Shown: positions 42,309 through 51,928 of the stretch, one piece after another | Numbering within the stretch: position 1 is the first letter of the stretch | Layout of the letters: every line of letters starts with the position of its first letter | From: Anaerolineae bacterium | Lineage (GTDB): Bacteria > Chloroflexota > Anaerolineae > Aggregatilineales > Aggregatilineaceae | Direction of reading: 5' to 3' | NCBI GenBank assembly: GCA_018432315.1 | Contig: JAHDLB010000025.1 | Span: forward strand, 124,001 to 188,000 | DNA: 64,000 nucleotides | Position numbers and translations under genes: made by a program | The notes under the pieces: generated by a model | Told to the model about the DNA's origin: nothing | What the model saw: the letters and a program-made list of their open reading frames with translations, nothing else | Databases searched by the model: none

Positions 42309-43184
42309 TCACGAGCGCGAGATCAGGTAGATGCTCACCAGGATCAGCCCGCCGCCGGCCACGCCGAGCAGGTTGGGAATCTCGTCGAACAGGAACAGGC
42401 CGAACAGCACGCCGCTGACCGGCTCCAGCAGGGCGACCACGCTCACCACCTGGGCGGGGATGCGCTGCAAGCCCAGGAAGTACAGCAGGTAGGACAGGCC
42501 CAGCGAGAAGACGCCGAGCGGGATCAACAGGTGGACGTTGTCGGCCACCGTCTGCGCCGGGACGTCGCGCAGCGCCCAGGGCAGCAGCACCAGCGCCGTC
42601 AGGCCGTTGCTCCACAGCGTCTGGGTGAGGCCGGTCACCGCGCCGCGCAGCCCGCGCCCGATCAACATGACCAGCGCGTACGTCAGGCCGGAGAGCGCGC
42701 CCGCCGCAATTCCCCCCAGCGAATCCCAACTGAGCTGCAGTTCCGCCGGGTTAGAGACGAAGATCATGCCGGTGACGGCCAGCGCCAGGCTGGCCCACGT
42801 GTACCGGGCGCGCGCTTCGTGGAGCACCAGCGGCGCCAGGACCGCCACGTAAATCGGCGACGAGTTGACGAGCAGCGCGGCGTTGGCGGCGGTCGTGTTC
42901 TGGATCGCGTACGTGTACAGCGAGACGGTCATGCTGACGAACACGCCCAGCACCACCAGGCGGGGCATGGATGACCGGTACGCGCCAAACCGCACCGGCT
43001 CGCGGAAGCGAATCACCAGCGCGCACAAAAACAAAAAGCCGAACAGCGCCCGGAAGAATGCGATAGTGGACGTGCCGAGGCCGTCGGTCCAGCGGGTGAA
43101 GGGGATCGCCATGCTGAAGCAGAACGACCCCACCGCCACCATCAGGACGCCCTGCCATTCGACGGTGGATCGCGTGGCGTTCAT
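42309..43184 (-). CDS. EamA/DMT-family transporter
   Basis: A 291-residue ten-helix protein with two EamA repeats: 'GFLFLCALVIRFREP...AIQNTTAANAALLVNSSPIYVAVLAPLVLHEA' and 'GVFSLGLSYLLYFLGLQRIPAQVVSVVALLEPVSGVLFGLFLFDEIPN'. Members export amino acids, nucleosides or other metabolites. It is convergent with the MFS gene. The substrate is unknown. Confidence 0.88.
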   Translation of the reverse strand: MNATRSTVEWQGVLMVAVGSFCFSMAIPFTRWTDGLGTSTIAFFRALFGFLFLCALVIRFREPVRFGAYRSSMPRLVVLGVFVSMTVSLYTYAIQNTTAANAALLVNSSPIYVAVLAPLVLHEARARYTWASLALAVTGMIFVSNPAELQLSWDSLGGIAAGALSGLTYALVMLIGRGLRGAVTGLTQTLWSNGLTALVLLPWALRDVPAQTVADNVHLLIPLGVFSLGLSYLLYFLGLQRIPAQVVSVVALLEPVSGVLFGLFLFDEIPNLLGVAGGGLILVSIYLISRS

Positions 43185-43214: not shown

Positions 43215-44180
43215 TTACTGGTCCAGTTCCTGCCGTACCGTATCGACCAGCGCCGCCGCGTGCAGCTCGGCCAGCGTGTAGCACGGCCCCCCCAACCGGT
43301 CGGCGAGCAGTTGGGCCAGCCCCTGGTCGAAAGTGGCGTGCTCCATGTTGATCGTCACGTTGCGGATGTTCGCCTCGTTGATCTGGTCGGCGATGCGGTG
43401 GGCTTCGTCCTGCGGCGGCAGGTTGGTCATCGACACGTTTCCGGCGCCATCGGTGAGCAGGATCATCAGCGGCATCACGTCCGGGTGGCTGATCTGCTCG
43501 CGCTTGAAGACCTCCAGCGCCAGGTACAACCCCGCGGCCAGCGGCGTCTTGCCGCCGACGGGGATATCGGCCAGCGCCTTTTTCGCCAGCGTGACCGAAT
43601 TGGTGGGCGGCAGCACCAACTGCGCGCGGTCCTTCTGGAACACGATCAGCCCCACGCGGTCGCGGCGCTGGTAGGCATCGGTCAGCAGCGACATGATCGC
43701 GCCCTTGGTGGCGTTCATCCGCTCGGCGACGGCCATGCTCCAGCTCGCGTCCACCACGAACAGGATCAGGTTGGCCGACTTGCGCACGCGCACCTTGCGC
43801 TGCAAGTCCCCTTTGTGGATCGAATACGCGAGATGGTTGGCGTCGCGCTCCGGCTCGCGGCCCAACTGGTGCGGCGCCGCGGCGCGCAGCGTGGCGTCGA
43901 AGGCGATGTCGTCCAGCCGGTCGCCGGCGGGCCGCGCCTGGATGTAGCGCCCGTGCTTCCGGTCGGTGCGGGTCCGGCTGCGGCGGCCCGACACCTTGCG
44001 CGTCAGGCGGTCGAGCGGCGTGTCCAGGCGGCGCGGGGCGAATTCCTGGTTGGCCTCGACCTGTTTACCGCCTTCCCACCAGTACGCATCTTGCGCCTGA
44101 AAAACGTCCTGGGGCGCGGGTTCGGGCTCGCTCTCTACGACGTCGGATTCCGGCTGACCACTCTGGGTCAGCGGCTGACT
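43215..44180 (-). CDS. VWA domain of ChlD-type chelatase subunit, reached by -1 frameshift
   Basis: This frame is open without any start codon from the A8 run at 44180 down to a GTG at 43994. It encodes the acidic/Pro linker (SQPLTQSGQPESDVVESEP...) and basic segment that join AAA+ and von Willebrand A domains in ChlD/BchD. The VWA domain has the MIDAS motif 'DASWSM' (DxSxS) and 'LLTDGAGN'. Read as a -1 continuation of the AAA+ ORF it gives a protein of 687 residues, the normal ChlD size. Independent translation from GTG 43994 would give 259 residues without the linker. ChlD-type subunits form the AAA+ motor with ChlI to insert Mg2+ or Co2+ into tetrapyrroles; the large chelatase subunit is not in the window. 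Confidence 0.8.
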   Translation of the reverse strand, partial: SQPLTQSGQPESDVVESEPEPAPQDVFQAQDAYWWEGGKQVEANQEFAPRRLDTPLDRLTRKVSGRRSRTRTDRKHGRYIQARPAGDRLDDIAFDATLRAAAPHQLGREPERDANHLAYSIHKGDLQRKVRVRKSANLILFVVDASWSMAVAERMNATKGAIMSLLTDAYQRRDRVGLIVFQKDRAQLVLPPTNSVTLAKKALADIPVGGKTPLAAGLYLALEVFKREQISHPDVMPLMILLTDGAGNVSMTNLPPQDEAHRIADQINEANIRNVTINMEHATFDQGLAQLLADRLGGPCYTLAELHAAALVDTVRQELDQ

Positions 44181-44188
44181 TTTTTTTC
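44153..44188 (-). other. Predicted -1 recoding signal: A8 slippery run plus hairpin
   Basis: On the minus strand codons run GCG GAA AAA AAA GTC AGC CGC TGA, so the slippery heptamer A-AAA-AAA is in frame. Seven bases downstream the perfect 7-bp stem GCTGACC/GGTCAGC (44166-44172 with 44153-44159, loop CAGAGT) begins, and the zero-frame TGA lies within the stem. A -1 slip gives E-K-K-S-Q-P-L-T and continues into the VWA frame. Confidence 0.75.
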
Positions 44189-45277
44189 CGCGTCCGCGGG
44201 ATCGCTGGTCGTCTCCTGGACGACCTCGGCAGCCTGTTCGTCGTACTCCTCGCTGATCTGTTCCAGGCGCTCGCCCAGGTCGCCCTGGTAGAGCGTCTGG
44301 TCGGAGAACGGGCCGCGCTTCATGCGGTGCGGCAGCGCCAGCTCCGCGGCCAGCAGGATGTCGCGCTCGGTGATCTGCGTCCGCCCCTCGAAGGCGGCAT
44401 GCGCGCGCGCCGTCTTGAGGATGACGAGGTCGGCGCGGTGGCCGTCCACGCCCAGGCTGGCCGTGAGCGTGGCGATTGTGAACAGGTCGCGGCGGGTGTA
44501 TTCCACGTCCTCGACGATCCCCCGCGCGGCATCGATGCGCGCCGAGAGTTCCTGCTCCCGCGGGAGCCAGTCACGGCGAAAGTGCTCGGCGTCGGCGTCG
44601 AACGCGATGTGCCGTTCGAGGATCGCCATGCGCTCGCCCGCGTCGGCCAGGCCGCGCACGTCCACCGACAGCGCGAACCGGTCCAGAAGCTGCGGGCGCA
44701 GATCGCCTTCTTCGGGGTTCATGGTGCCCACCAGGATGAAGCGGGCCGGGTGCTGGAAGCTGATCCCCTCGCGCTCGACGACGTTGACGCCCATCGCCGC
44801 CGAGTCGAGCAGCAGGTCCACCACGTGATCATCCAGCAGGTTTACCTCGTCCACGTAGAGAATGCCCCGGTTGGCCGCGGCCAGCACGCCCGGATCGAAG
44901 TGGCGCTCGCCCTTCTGGATCGCCTTCTCGATATCGAGCGTGCCCACGACGCGATCCTCGGTGGCGCTCACCGGCAGGTCGACCAGGCGCGTCCGGCGCC
45001 GGGCCACGGGCAGTTCTTCGCCCCGCGCCAGCCGGTCGCGGCATTCGTCACACAGGCGGTCGCGCTGGTGTGGATCGCAGTTGAAGCGGCAGTCGGCGAC
45101 GACCTCGATATCCGGCAGCAAAGCCGCCAGCGCGCGCGCCGCGGTGGACTTGGCCGTGCCGCGCTCCCCACGAATCAGCACGCCGCCGATGCTCGGATTG
45201 ACCGCATTCAGAATCAGCGCACGTTTCATGCGCTCCTGGCCCACGATCGCGGTGAATGGATAAACGGTCTGTTGCAC
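44168..45277 (-). CDS. AAA+ ATPase, ChlI/BchI-like chelatase subunit (zero-frame product)
   Basis: A 369-residue AAA+ ATPase: Walker A 'IRGERGTAKSTAARAL', Walker B 'NRGILYVDEVNLLDD', and 'TMNPEEGDLRPQLLDRFALSVDVRG' (sensor 1 and arginine-finger region), all as in magnesium/cobalt chelatase I subunits. Four Cys in 'CRFNCDPHQRDRLCDECRDRL' may bind metal. The start is GTG at 45277 with GAGG upstream. The frame ends two residues beyond the usual AAA+ length, at a TGA inside the recoding hairpin, so the same gene can yield an I-like short and a D-like long product. Confidence 0.9.
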   Translation of the reverse strand: MQQTVYPFTAIVGQERMKRALILNAVNPSIGGVLIRGERGTAKSTAARALAALLPDIEVVADCRFNCDPHQRDRLCDECRDRLARGEELPVARRRTRLVDLPVSATEDRVVGTLDIEKAIQKGERHFDPGVLAAANRGILYVDEVNLLDDHVVDLLLDSAAMGVNVVEREGISFQHPARFILVGTMNPEEGDLRPQLLDRFALSVDVRGLADAGERMAILERHIAFDADAEHFRRDWLPREQELSARIDAARGIVEDVEYTRRDLFTIATLTASLGVDGHRADLVILKTARAHAAFEGRTQITERDILLAAELALPHRMKRGPFSDQTLYQGDLGERLEQISEEYDEQAAEVVQETTSDPADAEKKVSR

Positions 45278-47713: not shown

Positions 47714-50700
47714 TTGCGGATCAAAACCATCCTCCCCGACCTCGTGATTGTGGCAGGGCTGTTGCTTCTGCCACTGTTGTTTTTCGCCCCGGTGACGCTC
47801 GGCAGCCGGACGCAGATCCCCGCCGACAACCTGTACCAGTTCCAGCCGTGGCTCAGCGCGCGCGACGCGGTGGGCGCCCCGGACGTGCCGCACAACGGGC
47901 TGTTGTCCGACCTCGTGCTGCAAAACTTCCAGTGGAAAACCTTCATCCGCCGCAGCCTGTCGGACGGCGTGATCCCGCTGTGGCAAACCGAGCAGTTCGC
48001 CGGGACGCCCTTCCTGGCGGCGGGGCAGCATTCCGCGCTCTACCCGTTCAGCCTGATCTACACCATCCTGCCACTGCCGCGCGCCTATGGCTGGTTCACG
48101 ATCAGCCAGTTGTGGCTGGCCGGGGCGCTGATGTACGTGTTCGTCCGCGGGATCGGGCTGGGCCGCGCAGCGGGCGCGGTGGCCGGAGTCGCCTACCAGT
48201 TCAGCACGTTCTTCATCCTCAGCGTCGTCTTCCCGATGATGATCGCGGGCGCGGCGTGGCTGCCGCTGCTGCTGCTCATGATCGAGTTCGCCATCCGGCG
48301 GCGACCTCTGCGCGGCGACCGGCCCGCCACCGTCCCCTGGATCGCGCTGGGGGCCATCGCGCTGATGATGAACATCTTCGCCGGGCACGTCGAGATCACG
48401 TACTACACGCTGATCGTGATGGCCTATTATGCGGCGGCGCGGCTGGGCTGGCTGTGGTGGCGGGATCGTGGCGGCTGGCGGCGGCTGGCTCGCCCGGCGG
48501 CCTCGCTGCTCGTCATGGTGGCGCTGGGGCTGGGCCTCGGCGCGGCGCAGTTCATCCCGCTCTACGAGCTGGGCACGCGCAACTTTCGCGAAGACGCCGC
48601 CGATCTCGACACCGTGCGGAGCTGGGCTTTCCCGGCGCGGCACGTCGCCAAGTTCCTGATCCCCAACGTCTACGGCAACCCGGCCCACCACGCCTACCGC
48701 GACGTCTTCACCGGCGAGCGCGTGGCCCACGACTGGGCGCGCCCGTGCGATTGGTGCCCGGATGGGGTCGAGCGCGTGACGGATACCGCGTTCGGCATCA
48801 AGAACCACGTCGAGGGCGGGGCGTACGTGGGCATCCTCACGCTGGCGCTGGCCGCGATCGGCCTGCTGGCGCGGCGGGGTCCCGGCCCGGACGAGCGCAG
48901 CGAGCGCGACGATTCCGATCCGCCGTTCCGCGCAATCTTCGCCGTCCTGGGCGCGGTCGCGGCGACATTCGCCTTCGGCCTGCCCACCTACGCCGTGCTG
49001 TACCACGCCTTTCCCAACATCAACCAGCTTCACACGCCGTTCCGCTGGGTGTGGCCGCTGACGTTTTGCGCGGCGGTTCTGGCCGCGTTCGGCGTCGAGG
49101 CGCTCGCCCGCGCCCGCCAGCCGGGCGCCCCGCGTTGGAACATCCGGCTGATCCGCGCCGCCGGCCTGGGACTCGTCGCGGCGGGCGTCGTCGTGACGGG
49201 TGGGCTGCTGCTCAGCCGCGCCGCCTTCGGGACGTTCGAGCCGCTGGTCGAGCGGGTCTTCGAGGGACTGACCGGGGCCGACCGGGCCTTCCCCGACGCG
49301 CACAGCTTCTACAGCTACCAGTTCTGGAACGTGTTGATCTTCGGGATTGTGCTGCTGGCATCCGGCGCGGTCGTCCTGCTGGGCCGGGCGCGGTGGGTGC
49401 TGCCGCGCCGCCTGGGGCGCGCGCCGCTGTGGGCGGCGGGCGCGGTGGCCGTGATCGCGGTCGACCTGATGATCGCCGGGTGGGACTTCAACCCGTCGGC
49501 GGACCCGGCCTGGCTCGACTACACGCCGGAGTCGGTGACGTGGCTCCAGGCCAAACAGGCCGAGGGCGTCCCCTTCCGCTACACGACGGTCAACTTCGGC
49601 AAGGCGCCGCTGCACGCCAACAGCACGTGGCGCTATGGCCTGCACGACGTGCGCGGCTACGACAGCATGATCCCCCGGCAGTACGCCGACTACATGGAAC
49701 TGATCGCGCCGCAGGGCGAGCTGCAGTTCAACCGCATCGCGCCCGTGCAGTGGGACGATACCGCCGCGCTGGCGTCGCCGCTGCTGGACCTGCTCAACGT
49801 GCGCTACATCGTCGCCGATTATGTGGTCGAGGATGCCGGCTCACTGGGCCTGGACGAAGTGTACGTCGATGGCGCGGTCCGCATCTACGAAAACCGGGAC
49901 GCGCTGCCGCGCGCGTACACCCTGCCCTACACCGATCTCACCGAGGAGCAGTGCGGCGCCACCCCGGACGACTTCGCGACCATCGTCACCAGCCCGGATT
50001 TCGCCGCCGACCCGCGCCGCGTGGTGATCGAAGGTTTCCCCGATGCCGACGACTGCGAGCTGGTCTATCACTGGCCGGAGCCTGAACACGAGGCAGACCC
50101 GGTCGCCGCGCAGATCACGAATTACGGCGCGATCGAGGTCATCGTGGCGCCGGAGGTCGACGCCGAGTCGTGGCTGGTGCTGGCCGACAGCTACTATCCC
50201 GGCTGGAAGGCGTTCATCCGCCCGCAGGGCAGCGGCGAGGATGCCGAAGAACAGGTCGACATTCACCTGGTCAACGGCAACTTTCGCGGCGTGCGCGTGC
50301 CGCCCGGCGCGTGGATCGTCCGCTTCCGCTACAGCCCGCCGAGCTTTCAGATCGGCGCGTTCGGCTCGTTCCTCAGCGGGATGCTGATCATCTTCATGCT
50401 GATGTTGTGGCTGTGGCGCCGCTTTTACCGCGAGGACGCCGAGGGCGACAGCGCCAGGCGCATCGCCAAGAACAGCCTCGCGCCGATCATCCTCAACCTG
50501 TTCAACCGCGGGATCGACTTCGCCTTCGCGTTCATCATGCTGCGCATCCTCGGCCCGGCGGACGCGGGAATCTACTATTACGCGATCGTGATCTTCGGCT
50601 GGTTCGACATCCTGACCAACTTCGGCCTGAACACCTTCCTCATGCGCGAAGTGGCCCGCAACCGCGCGGAGGCGGGCCGCTACTTGCTCAACAGCACGGT

Positions 50701-51928
50701 GTTGCGGCTGGGGCTGGCGGTGGCGGGCGTGCCGCTGCTGATCGCGTTTCTGGCGGCGCGGCAGGCGACGGTCGATCCCCCACTCGAAACGCAGGCCATC
50801 GCAGCGATCGTCCTGCTGTATGTGGGGCTGCTGCCCAACAGCATCAGCACCGGGCTGACGGCCCTGTTCTACGGGTTCGAGAAGGCCGAATTTCCCGCCG
50901 CGATCACGACCGTGAGCACCATCGTCAAGGTGACGCTCGGGCTGGCGACGCTGCTGCTCGGCTGGGGCGTGGTCGGGCTGGCGGGCGGCGCGGTCGTCAC
51001 CAACCTGGTGACGTTCGCCGTGCTGGCCCTGCTGGCGCGCCCGCTGGTGGGCGATTTTTTCCAGAAGCCGGACGGGCGCGTCATGCGGCACATGATGGGC
51101 GAGAGCTGGCCGCTGATGCTCAACCACCTGCTGGCAACGGTCTTCTTCAAGATCGACATCGTGCTGATGGAAGCCATCAACGGCAACACCGTCGTCGGGC
51201 AGTATTCGACCGCCTACAAGTGGCTCGACGCGCTGAACATCATCCCGGCGTTCCTGACGATGGCGCTGCTGCCGGTCATGGCGCGGCAGGCCCACGCGGA
51301 CCGGCCCGGACTGCGGCGCAATTACACGCTGGCGGTCAAGCTGCTGTTCATGACGGCGGTGCCGATCGCGGTGGTGACGACGTTCATCGCCGAGCCGCTG
51401 ATCCGCGTGCTGGGCGGCGCGGAATACCTGCCGGCGGGCGGCATCGCGCTGCGGATCATGATCTGGAGCATCCTCATCGGCTGGATCAACAGCGTGACCA
51501 ACTACGTGATCGTGGCGCTGGATCGCCAGCGCACGCTGACCTTCGCCTTTGCGATCGGCGTGGCGTTCAACGTCATCACGAACCTGATCCTGCTGCCGGT
51601 TTACAGCTACCGCGCGGCGGCGGTCACGACTATATTCTCGGAACTCACGCTGATGCTGGCTTTCGGCTGGATCATCCGGCAGGAGATCGGCGGCATGCAG
51701 TGGCCGCGCGCGCTGTGGCGCCCGGCGCTGGCGGGGGGCGTGCTGCTGGCGCTGTTGGGCGTGTTCTGGCAGTTTTCACCCGCTCTGGGGCTGCTCCTGT
51801 CGCCGGTGATATACGGCGCGGTGGTGCTGGGGCTGCGCCCGTTCGGCCCGGACGAGCTGGCGCGCATCGCGCCGCTGCTGCCGGGGCGGCTGCGCCCGCG
51901 CGCCGTCCCCCTGCGCGAGGGGCGGTAG
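47714..51928 (+). CDS. YfhO-like membrane protein fused to a Wzx-type flippase
   Basis: A 1404-residue protein. Residues 1 to about 905 resemble YfhO-family (GT-C-like) proteins: a first helix, 'IPADNLYQFQPWLSARDAVG', about 12 helices and an extracytoplasmic domain with 'YYPGWKAFIRPQGSGEDAEEQVDIHLVNGNFRGVRVPPGAWIVRFRYSP'. From about 912 ('AKNSLAPIILNLFNRGIDFAFAFIMLRILGPADAGIYYYAIV') to 1404 is a complete polysaccharide-flippase (Wzx/MATE-like, about 12-14 helices). The frame is continuous with no stop at the junction. It may couple glycosylation with lipid-linked sugar export. The start is TTG at 47714 with GGAG upstream. Confidence 0.82.
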   Translation: MRIKTILPDLVIVAGLLLLPLLFFAPVTLGSRTQIPADNLYQFQPWLSARDAVGAPDVPHNGLLSDLVLQNFQWKTFIRRSLSDGVIPLWQTEQFAGTPFLAAGQHSALYPFSLIYTILPLPRAYGWFTISQLWLAGALMYVFVRGIGLGRAAGAVAGVAYQFSTFFILSVVFPMMIAGAAWLPLLLLMIEFAIRRRPLRGDRPATVPWIALGAIALMMNIFAGHVEITYYTLIVMAYYAAARLGWLWWRDRGGWRRLARPAASLLVMVALGLGLGAAQFIPLYELGTRNFREDAADLDTVRSWAFPARHVAKFLIPNVYGNPAHHAYRDVFTGERVAHDWARPCDWCPDGVERVTDTAFGIKNHVEGGAYVGILTLALAAIGLLARRGPGPDERSERDDSDPPFRAIFAVLGAVAATFAFGLPTYAVLYHAFPNINQLHTPFRWVWPLTFCAAVLAAFGVEALARARQPGAPRWNIRLIRAAGLGLVAAGVVVTGGLLLSRAAFGTFEPLVERVFEGLTGADRAFPDAHSFYSYQFWNVLIFGIVLLASGAVVLLGRARWVLPRRLGRAPLWAAGAVAVIAVDLMIAGWDFNPSADPAWLDYTPESVTWLQAKQAEGVPFRYTTVNFGKAPLHANSTWRYGLHDVRGYDSMIPRQYADYMELIAPQGELQFNRIAPVQWDDTAALASPLLDLLNVRYIVADYVVEDAGSLGLDEVYVDGAVRIYENRDALPRAYTLPYTDLTEEQCGATPDDFATIVTSPDFAADPRRVVIEGFPDADDCELVYHWPEPEHEADPVAAQITNYGAIEVIVAPEVDAESWLVLADSYYPGWKAFIRPQGSGEDAEEQVDIHLVNGNFRGVRVPPGAWIVRFRYSPPSFQIGAFGSFLSGMLIIFMLMLWLWRRFYREDAEGDSARRIAKNSLAPIILNLFNRGIDFAFAFIMLRILGPADAGIYYYAIVIFGWFDILTNFGLNTFLMREVARNRAEAGRYLLNSTVLRLGLAVAGVPLLIAFLAARQATVDPPLETQAIAAIVLLYVGLLPNSISTGLTALFYGFEKAEFPAAITTVSTIVKVTLGLATLLLGWGVVGLAGGAVVTNLVTFAVLALLARPLVGDFFQKPDGRVMRHMMGESWPLMLNHLLATVFFKIDIVLMEAINGNTVVGQYSTAYKWLDALNIIPAFLTMALLPVMARQAHADRPGLRRNYTLAVKLLFMTAVPIAVVTTFIAEPLIRVLGGAEYLPAGGIALRIMIWSILIGWINSVTNYVIVALDRQRTLTFAFAIGVAFNVITNLILLPVYSYRAAAVTTIFSELTLMLAFGWIIRQEIGGMQWPRALWRPALAGGVLLALLGVFWQFSPALGLLLSPVIYGAVVLGLRPFGPDELARIAPLLPGRLRPRAVPLREGR

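Follow-up and report, generated by a model that had tools for sequence, protein, structure and literature searches.

Within the 64-kb stretch of Anaerolineae DNA analysed here (the window), a reading frame for an AAA+ protein ends just behind a run of eight A residues, and the sequence continues in the −1 frame into a VWA domain. The locus raises the question whether this is one gene with two products and, if so, by which kind of slippage the second product would be made.

The slip site of the window gene and its relatives

All features of the gene lie on the minus strand. The zero frame starts with GTG at 45277 and encodes a ChlI-like AAA+ short product of 369 amino acids (44168..45277). Its 3′ end reads GCG GAA AAA AAA GTC AGC CGC TGA, in which the A8 run (44180..44187, T8 on the plus strand) provides the heptamer A_AAA_AAA in frame. 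The TGA (44168..44170) is located 9 nt past the run, within the 5′ arm of a candidate frameshift-stimulating stem-loop, GCTGACC / CAGAGT / GGTCAGC (44153..44172), with a 7-bp stem starting at +7 and a 6-nt loop. A sequence-only reading had pointed out the run, the heptamer, the hairpin 7 nt on and the stop in its stem, and all were found again when the minus strand was re-read. Reading in the −1 frame past the A8 passes through a linker (43995..44179) into a region carrying the VWA domain (43215..43994) and ends at 43215, which gives the 687-residue long product claimed earlier. The VWA_2 domain was matched at about 43446-43766, with DASWS as its MIDAS motif, and the linker, described before as acidic, is mildly so (22% D/E and 13% K/R over residues 341-440).

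No ATG, GTG or TTG occurs in the −1 frame from the slip site up to the GTG at 43994 (+193 nt), in agreement with the earlier figure of about 190 bases without a start codon; a CTG is present at +16. The third frame has no stop for 112 nt. The A8 is the sole run of at least eight A/T in the window, which has 67.5% GC and for which a first-order Markov model predicts 0.07 such runs by chance. The hairpin is modest when taken alone (z −1.80 for a 101-nt fold, with 9 of 200 shuffles equally good, and z −1.59 for a 55-nt window), so its weight has to come from relatives.

For the order, 101 genomes were searched, our own included, and 96 orthologous loci (L001-L096) were obtained; G037, G047, G059, G064 and G066 were left out, with weaker matches only (best E 4e-70 to 3e-5). 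In 89 of the 96 loci, the window included, an A8-A10 run is followed by the VWA part in the −1 frame. This part is in the same frame in four (L033, L049, L054 and L065, the last without any run) and in the +1 frame in two (L035 and L060), and in L081 the C part is missing at the end of the fetched stretch. Uninterrupted relatives, named in the sequence-only reading as the refuting case, thus do occur, as a minority beside a −1 majority, and most order loci match the predicted −1 recoding gene with its I-like and D-like products. A_AAA_AAA is in frame at all 89 −1 order loci, any run of nine or more giving this heptamer by itself. The zero-frame stop lies exactly 9 nt past the run in 82 of these 89 loci. 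Of 227 distinct loci from the order and class, 206 have it within 15 nt of the run; when the corresponding frame was read within the VWA part as a control, a stop was that close in 15.7%.

The wider sample consisted of 80 named relatives, 100 class loci and 48 phylum loci, many of the last being repeats. The named relatives carry titles that are mostly Anaerolineae, Anaerolineales, Anaerolineaceae and Chloroflexi MAGs, with odd single titles such as Thermoflexus, Herpetosiphon and Bacteroidetes. Class and phylum loci were chosen from the best-scoring matches listed, mostly with a short open frame. Among the 324 classified rows, duplicates included, 286 are in the −1 frame, 27 in the same frame (a fused share that is not an unbiased estimate given this choice), six in +1 (L035, L060, L119, L183, L205 and L325) and five lack the C part. 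L035 and L119 have an identical +1 site, and L325 is in +1 without a run. Slip runs of the relatives range from A7 to A10. All 274 distinct rows retain intact Walker A, Walker B, sensor and MIDAS motifs, and 273 retain the LLDRF motif. The conserved signal and frames can be read directly from these sequences, and as a prediction from them the production of two subunits from one gene via −1 recoding is well supported.

On the same strand, 30 bases downstream of the frameshift gene, lies an EamA-type transporter gene (42309-43184). Elsewhere in the window (47714-51928, plus strand) there is a 1404-aa ORF; on visual inspection, its second half resembles a polysaccharide flippase joined to a large membrane protein. 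No conserved neighbour that could be a partner emerged, the largest neighbour family occurring at 29 of 273 loci and the EamA cluster of the window at 7; the test is weak because flanks covered about 0.1 to 2.5 kb, with about 0.1 kb upstream at most class and phylum loci.

Protein family and putative function

The name chelatase subunits, used in the sequence-only reading, holds for the family. The short product matches the ChlI/BchI structures 8osf, 6l8d and 1g8p (best E 5.7e-102 with phmmer), and the VWA part matches the ChlD/BchD model TIGR02031 (192.9 bits) as well as the BchD structure 2x31. Pfam domain cut-offs were passed. The short product scored 427.1 bits with TIGR02030 (cut-off 466.95), and with TIGR02442 the separately scored N and VWA halves reached 504.6 and 254 bits (cut-off 779.45), so that neither half by itself attains a curated NCBIfam cut-off. 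An AAA+ domain, a linker and a VWA domain are encoded in one gene, split by the −1 frame change.

Chelatase function is doubtful. Neither a large subunit ChlH/BchH/CobN (PF02514) nor CbiC was found in our own genome, which is 99.4% complete, and for this reason chelatase stands here for a family name only. PF02514 was present in 4 of the 101 order genomes and above cut-off in 43 of 297 in the class set; CbiC occurred in 1 of the 101. The large-subunit neighbourhoods of three of these order genomes were retrieved (loci L097-L100). The large-subunit gene adjoins another ChlI-like gene in G019 (contig C76) and G088 (C16) and an in-frame I-D-like gene in G011 (C92), not the frameshift gene; from the fourth genome, G064, no orthologous frameshift locus was taken. 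The scarcity of large subunits and their placement away from the frameshift gene suggest that the I-like/D-like pair probably acts on a different client, perhaps in a way analogous to MoxR-VWA systems.

Frameshifted chlD genes (fs-chlD) are a described kind of gene, as the sequence-only reading had stated for chlD-type frameshifting. The accessible part of Kuznetsov et al. 2022 (PMC9227772) reports genes with ChlD architecture and a mostly −1 shift at an AT-rich slip site that 'usually' has RNA structure downstream, including Chloroflexi that lack the large subunit and a B12 or chlorophyll pathway (e.g., Brevefilum fermentans, stage 1). In the same part, Anaerolineaceae are described as having mixed genotypes, with fs-chlD next to a separate chlI, and the function of fs-chlD in such Chloroflexi is called unknown by its authors. 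The window gene shares the ChlD architecture, the −1 frame, the slip heptamer and the downstream stem, and is a member of this kind.

Our own genome also contains a separate ChlI-like AAA+ gene (contig C41, L102:1375-2562, plus strand), whose 396-aa product is 39% identical to the short product. Among the matches listed, many order genomes have second matches of about 40% identity. Antonov 2020 is said to have dealt with fs-chlD genes, and fs-chlD was reportedly found enriched where a separate small-subunit gene is missing, this being no strict requirement; in our genome the separate gene is there.

Run length and downstream hairpin

The 286 −1 loci represent 246 distinct sites. A stem was called canonical if it was the longest one, had at least 7 pairs and started 3-10 nt past the run. 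Canonical stems were present at 23 of 31 A7, 19 of 22 A8, 14 of 172 A9 and 1 of 21 A10 sites, which amounts to 42 of 53 short-run (A7/A8) and 15 of 193 long-run (A9/A10) sites (Fisher p 1.6e-24). The order alone gave the same picture, with a canonical stem in 14 of 15 A8 loci vs 5 of 74 A9/A10 loci. Comparison of homologues, as recommended in the sequence-only reading, therefore divided its two elements: the A-run is kept, but the hairpin is not general and is tied to short runs. All 42 short-run stems start 5-9 nt past the run, whereas those behind long runs are scattered over 0-15 nt. With any start from 0 to 15 nt allowed, the background for stems of at least 7 pairs was 12-17% among shuffles and 21-39% among windows lying further downstream, with the short-run group at the upper end. 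Mean fold z was −2.46 for A7, −2.03 for A8, −0.46 for A9 and −0.40 for A10. GC content was considered as a cause of the link and rejected, as sites above 60% GC still gave 34 of 38 vs 6 of 67.

Run class must have changed at least 11 times on the tree, and the association between run and hairpin was attained by none of 5000 simulated histories (FastTree topologies, midpoint root). For stems with any start and at least 6, 7, 8 or 9 pairs it was reached by 4, 0, 2 and 5 of 5000 simulations, respectively; such simulation is the weaker control, since the topology is taken as known. An independent-pairs test on the first tree, with 6 supported pairs only, was not significant. Independent pairs numbered 2.8 for and 0.1 against with stems of at least 7 pairs (median p 0.25), 3.9 for and 0.2 against with at least 8 (median p 0.125), and 3.4 for and 0.4 against when z below −1.5 was used (median p 0.25).

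Eleven of the 53 short-run sites lack a canonical stem. The exceptions include five of the six A7 rows from a clade that lies beyond the class and serves as outgroup (among L317-L321 and L323), two members of a four-row A8 clade (L249 and L269), three sites with stems of 5, 6 and 6 pairs (L219, L252 and L176) and an A8 relative in which one stem pair is broken (L013). The 15 long-run sites with a canonical stem include L005, which combines A9 with the family hairpin. Hairpin sequences differ between clades. Inspection by eye revealed compensating changes in two loci from a single clade (L195 and L197) and in a window-family locus, L015, where both sides of one stem pair have changed though both changes alter the protein. 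In the stem alignment of the window family this was the one doubly changed pair, and covariation was as high in 124 of 500 shuffles.

A Shine-Dalgarno-like stimulator upstream of the run was not clearly enriched. Mean pairing energy at −22 to −4 was −4.42 kcal/mol for A7/A8 sites, against a range of −3.47 to −4.33 over four more distant upstream windows, and −3.68 for A9/A10 sites, compared to −2.73 to −3.73. Outside the class, the A9 loci L315 and L316 have stems of 6-7 bp directly at the run end (offset 0), which is not frameshift spacing; these stems might act on polymerase slippage.

Relative to the fs-chlD literature, what the order and class counts add is the pairing of a short run with a hairpin vs a long run without one. 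For Antonov et al. 2013 (PMC3711429), the text at hand lists fs-genes from Pseudomonas, Burkholderia, Delftia, Herpetosiphon and methanogens, with overlapping ORFs and A_AAA_AAR as in our loci, and ties run length to efficiency, not to hairpin presence as here. Strong structure potential with unconserved sequence is reported for chelatase slip sites in the available part of PMC5009743. Among the titles and abstract beginnings screened, a set that did not cover Antonov 2020 and is not proof of absence, no publication was recognised that pairs run length with the hairpin in fs-chlD.

Ribosomal frameshifting, slippage and their possible exchange

We consider it likely that two proteins are made from the window gene by programmed −1 ribosomal frameshifting. 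Many ribosomes would halt at the TGA that follows GAA AAA AAA GTC AGC CGC and release the 369-residue ChlI-like ATPase. A fraction would pause at the stem-loop, slip one base back on A_AAA_AAA and enter the linker and VWA domain, yielding a ChlD-like protein of 687 residues that shares the AAA+ domain of the short product. Together the two would form a mixed AAA+/VWA complex comparable to ChlI-ChlD. We infer that ribosomes slip here and not RNA polymerase, as we do for the product ratio, the assembly and a client other than CobN/ChlH. Ribosomal frameshifting is favoured by the A8 run with its 7-bp stem at +7, shared with nearly all A8 loci of the order, by the double stem change in L015 and by the open third frame of the window gene. 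It is further favoured by frame, run and stop being kept throughout the order, by the excess of zero-frame stops close to the run over the control, and by magnesium chelatase cassettes that shifted in E. coli by 63% (11 A), 40% (9 A) and 10% (7 A), as given in the available text of PMC3711429. It is weakened by covariation that does not exceed shuffles, the broken pair in L013, a window hairpin that taken alone beats shuffles by little, the missing Shine-Dalgarno-like enrichment and the statement in the same text that homopolymers of at least eight can be transcriptional slip sites.

That statement also speaks for the strongest alternative, in which RNA polymerase adds an A and the resulting A9 mRNA is translated normally into the long product, as in Thermus dnaX. 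The relatives lend it weight, since 193 of the 246 distinct −1 loci have A9 or A10 and few of these a canonical stem. Where slippage of a run can be of either sign or span several bases, the third frame is expected to be closed, and a third-frame stop within 30 nt was found in 175 of 192 A9/A10 rows vs 23 of 53 A7/A8 rows (controls: linker 28-29%, VWA 14-18%), a pattern as described for 9A dnaX slippage. At a 35-nt cut-off the difference shrinks (181 of 192 long vs 38 of 53 short rows), as the stop is at +31 in seven loci of the window family. It was reached by 2 to 31 of 5000 simulations for cut-offs of 15 to 90 nt, and by 3 of 5000 on log distance. The window gene itself does not fit: its A8 is one below nine, the length at which Baranov 2005 sees selection in a large share of genomes, it carries a stem, and the third frame is left unguarded, unlike what slippage of either sign leads one to expect. 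For this gene we regard transcriptional slippage as unlikely.

dnaX is the closest parallel for a change of mechanism, with one gene giving two products by ribosomal frameshifting in E. coli and by transcriptional slippage on 9A in Thermus (PMC5009743 and PMC1088944, each as far as accessible). The Thermus gene has stops near the run in the other frames; a run of nine together with such stops is seen in many of the relatives, not in the window gene. The zero frame encodes the long product in dnaX but the short one here, except in two groups of fused genes, some one-frame genes having retained the A-run. In f29 genomes (L186, L190 and L328, all three taken) the fused gene has A9, and the other two frames meet stops at +0 and +5. 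The f17 genomes (L214, L293 and L333) and the named locus L177 carry A7, their −1 frame closing at +26; L293 and L333 also have a stem of 8-9 bp. Both groups look inverted and dnaX-like: default reading would yield the long product. In other fused genes the run exceeds that of a related locus by one A; these cases may be genuine or result from misassembly.

A single mRNA often carries neighbouring ORFs that overlap, and the VWA part could be translated separately, by coupling, from the GTG at 43994 or from an unusual upstream codon such as the CTG at +16. The 193 nt past the slip site that hold no ATG, GTG or TTG, the conserved slip run and the linker joined in frame in fused homologues make this very improbable. 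A sequencing or assembly error in the homopolymer of a draft genome in 66 contigs, or a pseudogene of a single uninterrupted ORF, is hardly credible: 27 of 324 rows are in one frame and L054 and L234 are one A off related loci, but the −1 rows predominate with varied run lengths and phases, the −1 frame recurs throughout the order, the stop lies just past the run, and the motifs are intact.

With ribosomal frameshifting as the preferred reading for the window gene, the pattern of runs and hairpins, judged from sequence comparison, suggests that ribosomal frameshifting and long-run slippage have replaced each other repeatedly. Taken as a whole, the reading that follows is tentative and in our judgement falls somewhat short of an even chance. 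Within one class, the same gene would repeatedly have exchanged its recoding machine. A7/A8 lineages would use hairpin-driven ribosomal frameshifting, with hairpins unrelated from clade to clade, and A9/A10 lineages would use long-run slippage, with RNA polymerase and/or the ribosome sliding, the other two frames closed by stops and a hairpin not needed. Run length would decide whether the hairpin is retained, while selection would hold the two-product output constant. The swap between two slip modes may be the new part.

If the exchange is true, short-run genes should need their hairpin and have uniform mRNA, and long-run genes should not need one and have ragged mRNA. Comparison across the class serves as a natural experiment for the upkeep of a recoding signal. 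As a member of the fs-chlD kind, the window gene also sharpens the question of what role a ChlI/ChlD-like pair has in bacteria without the large subunit.
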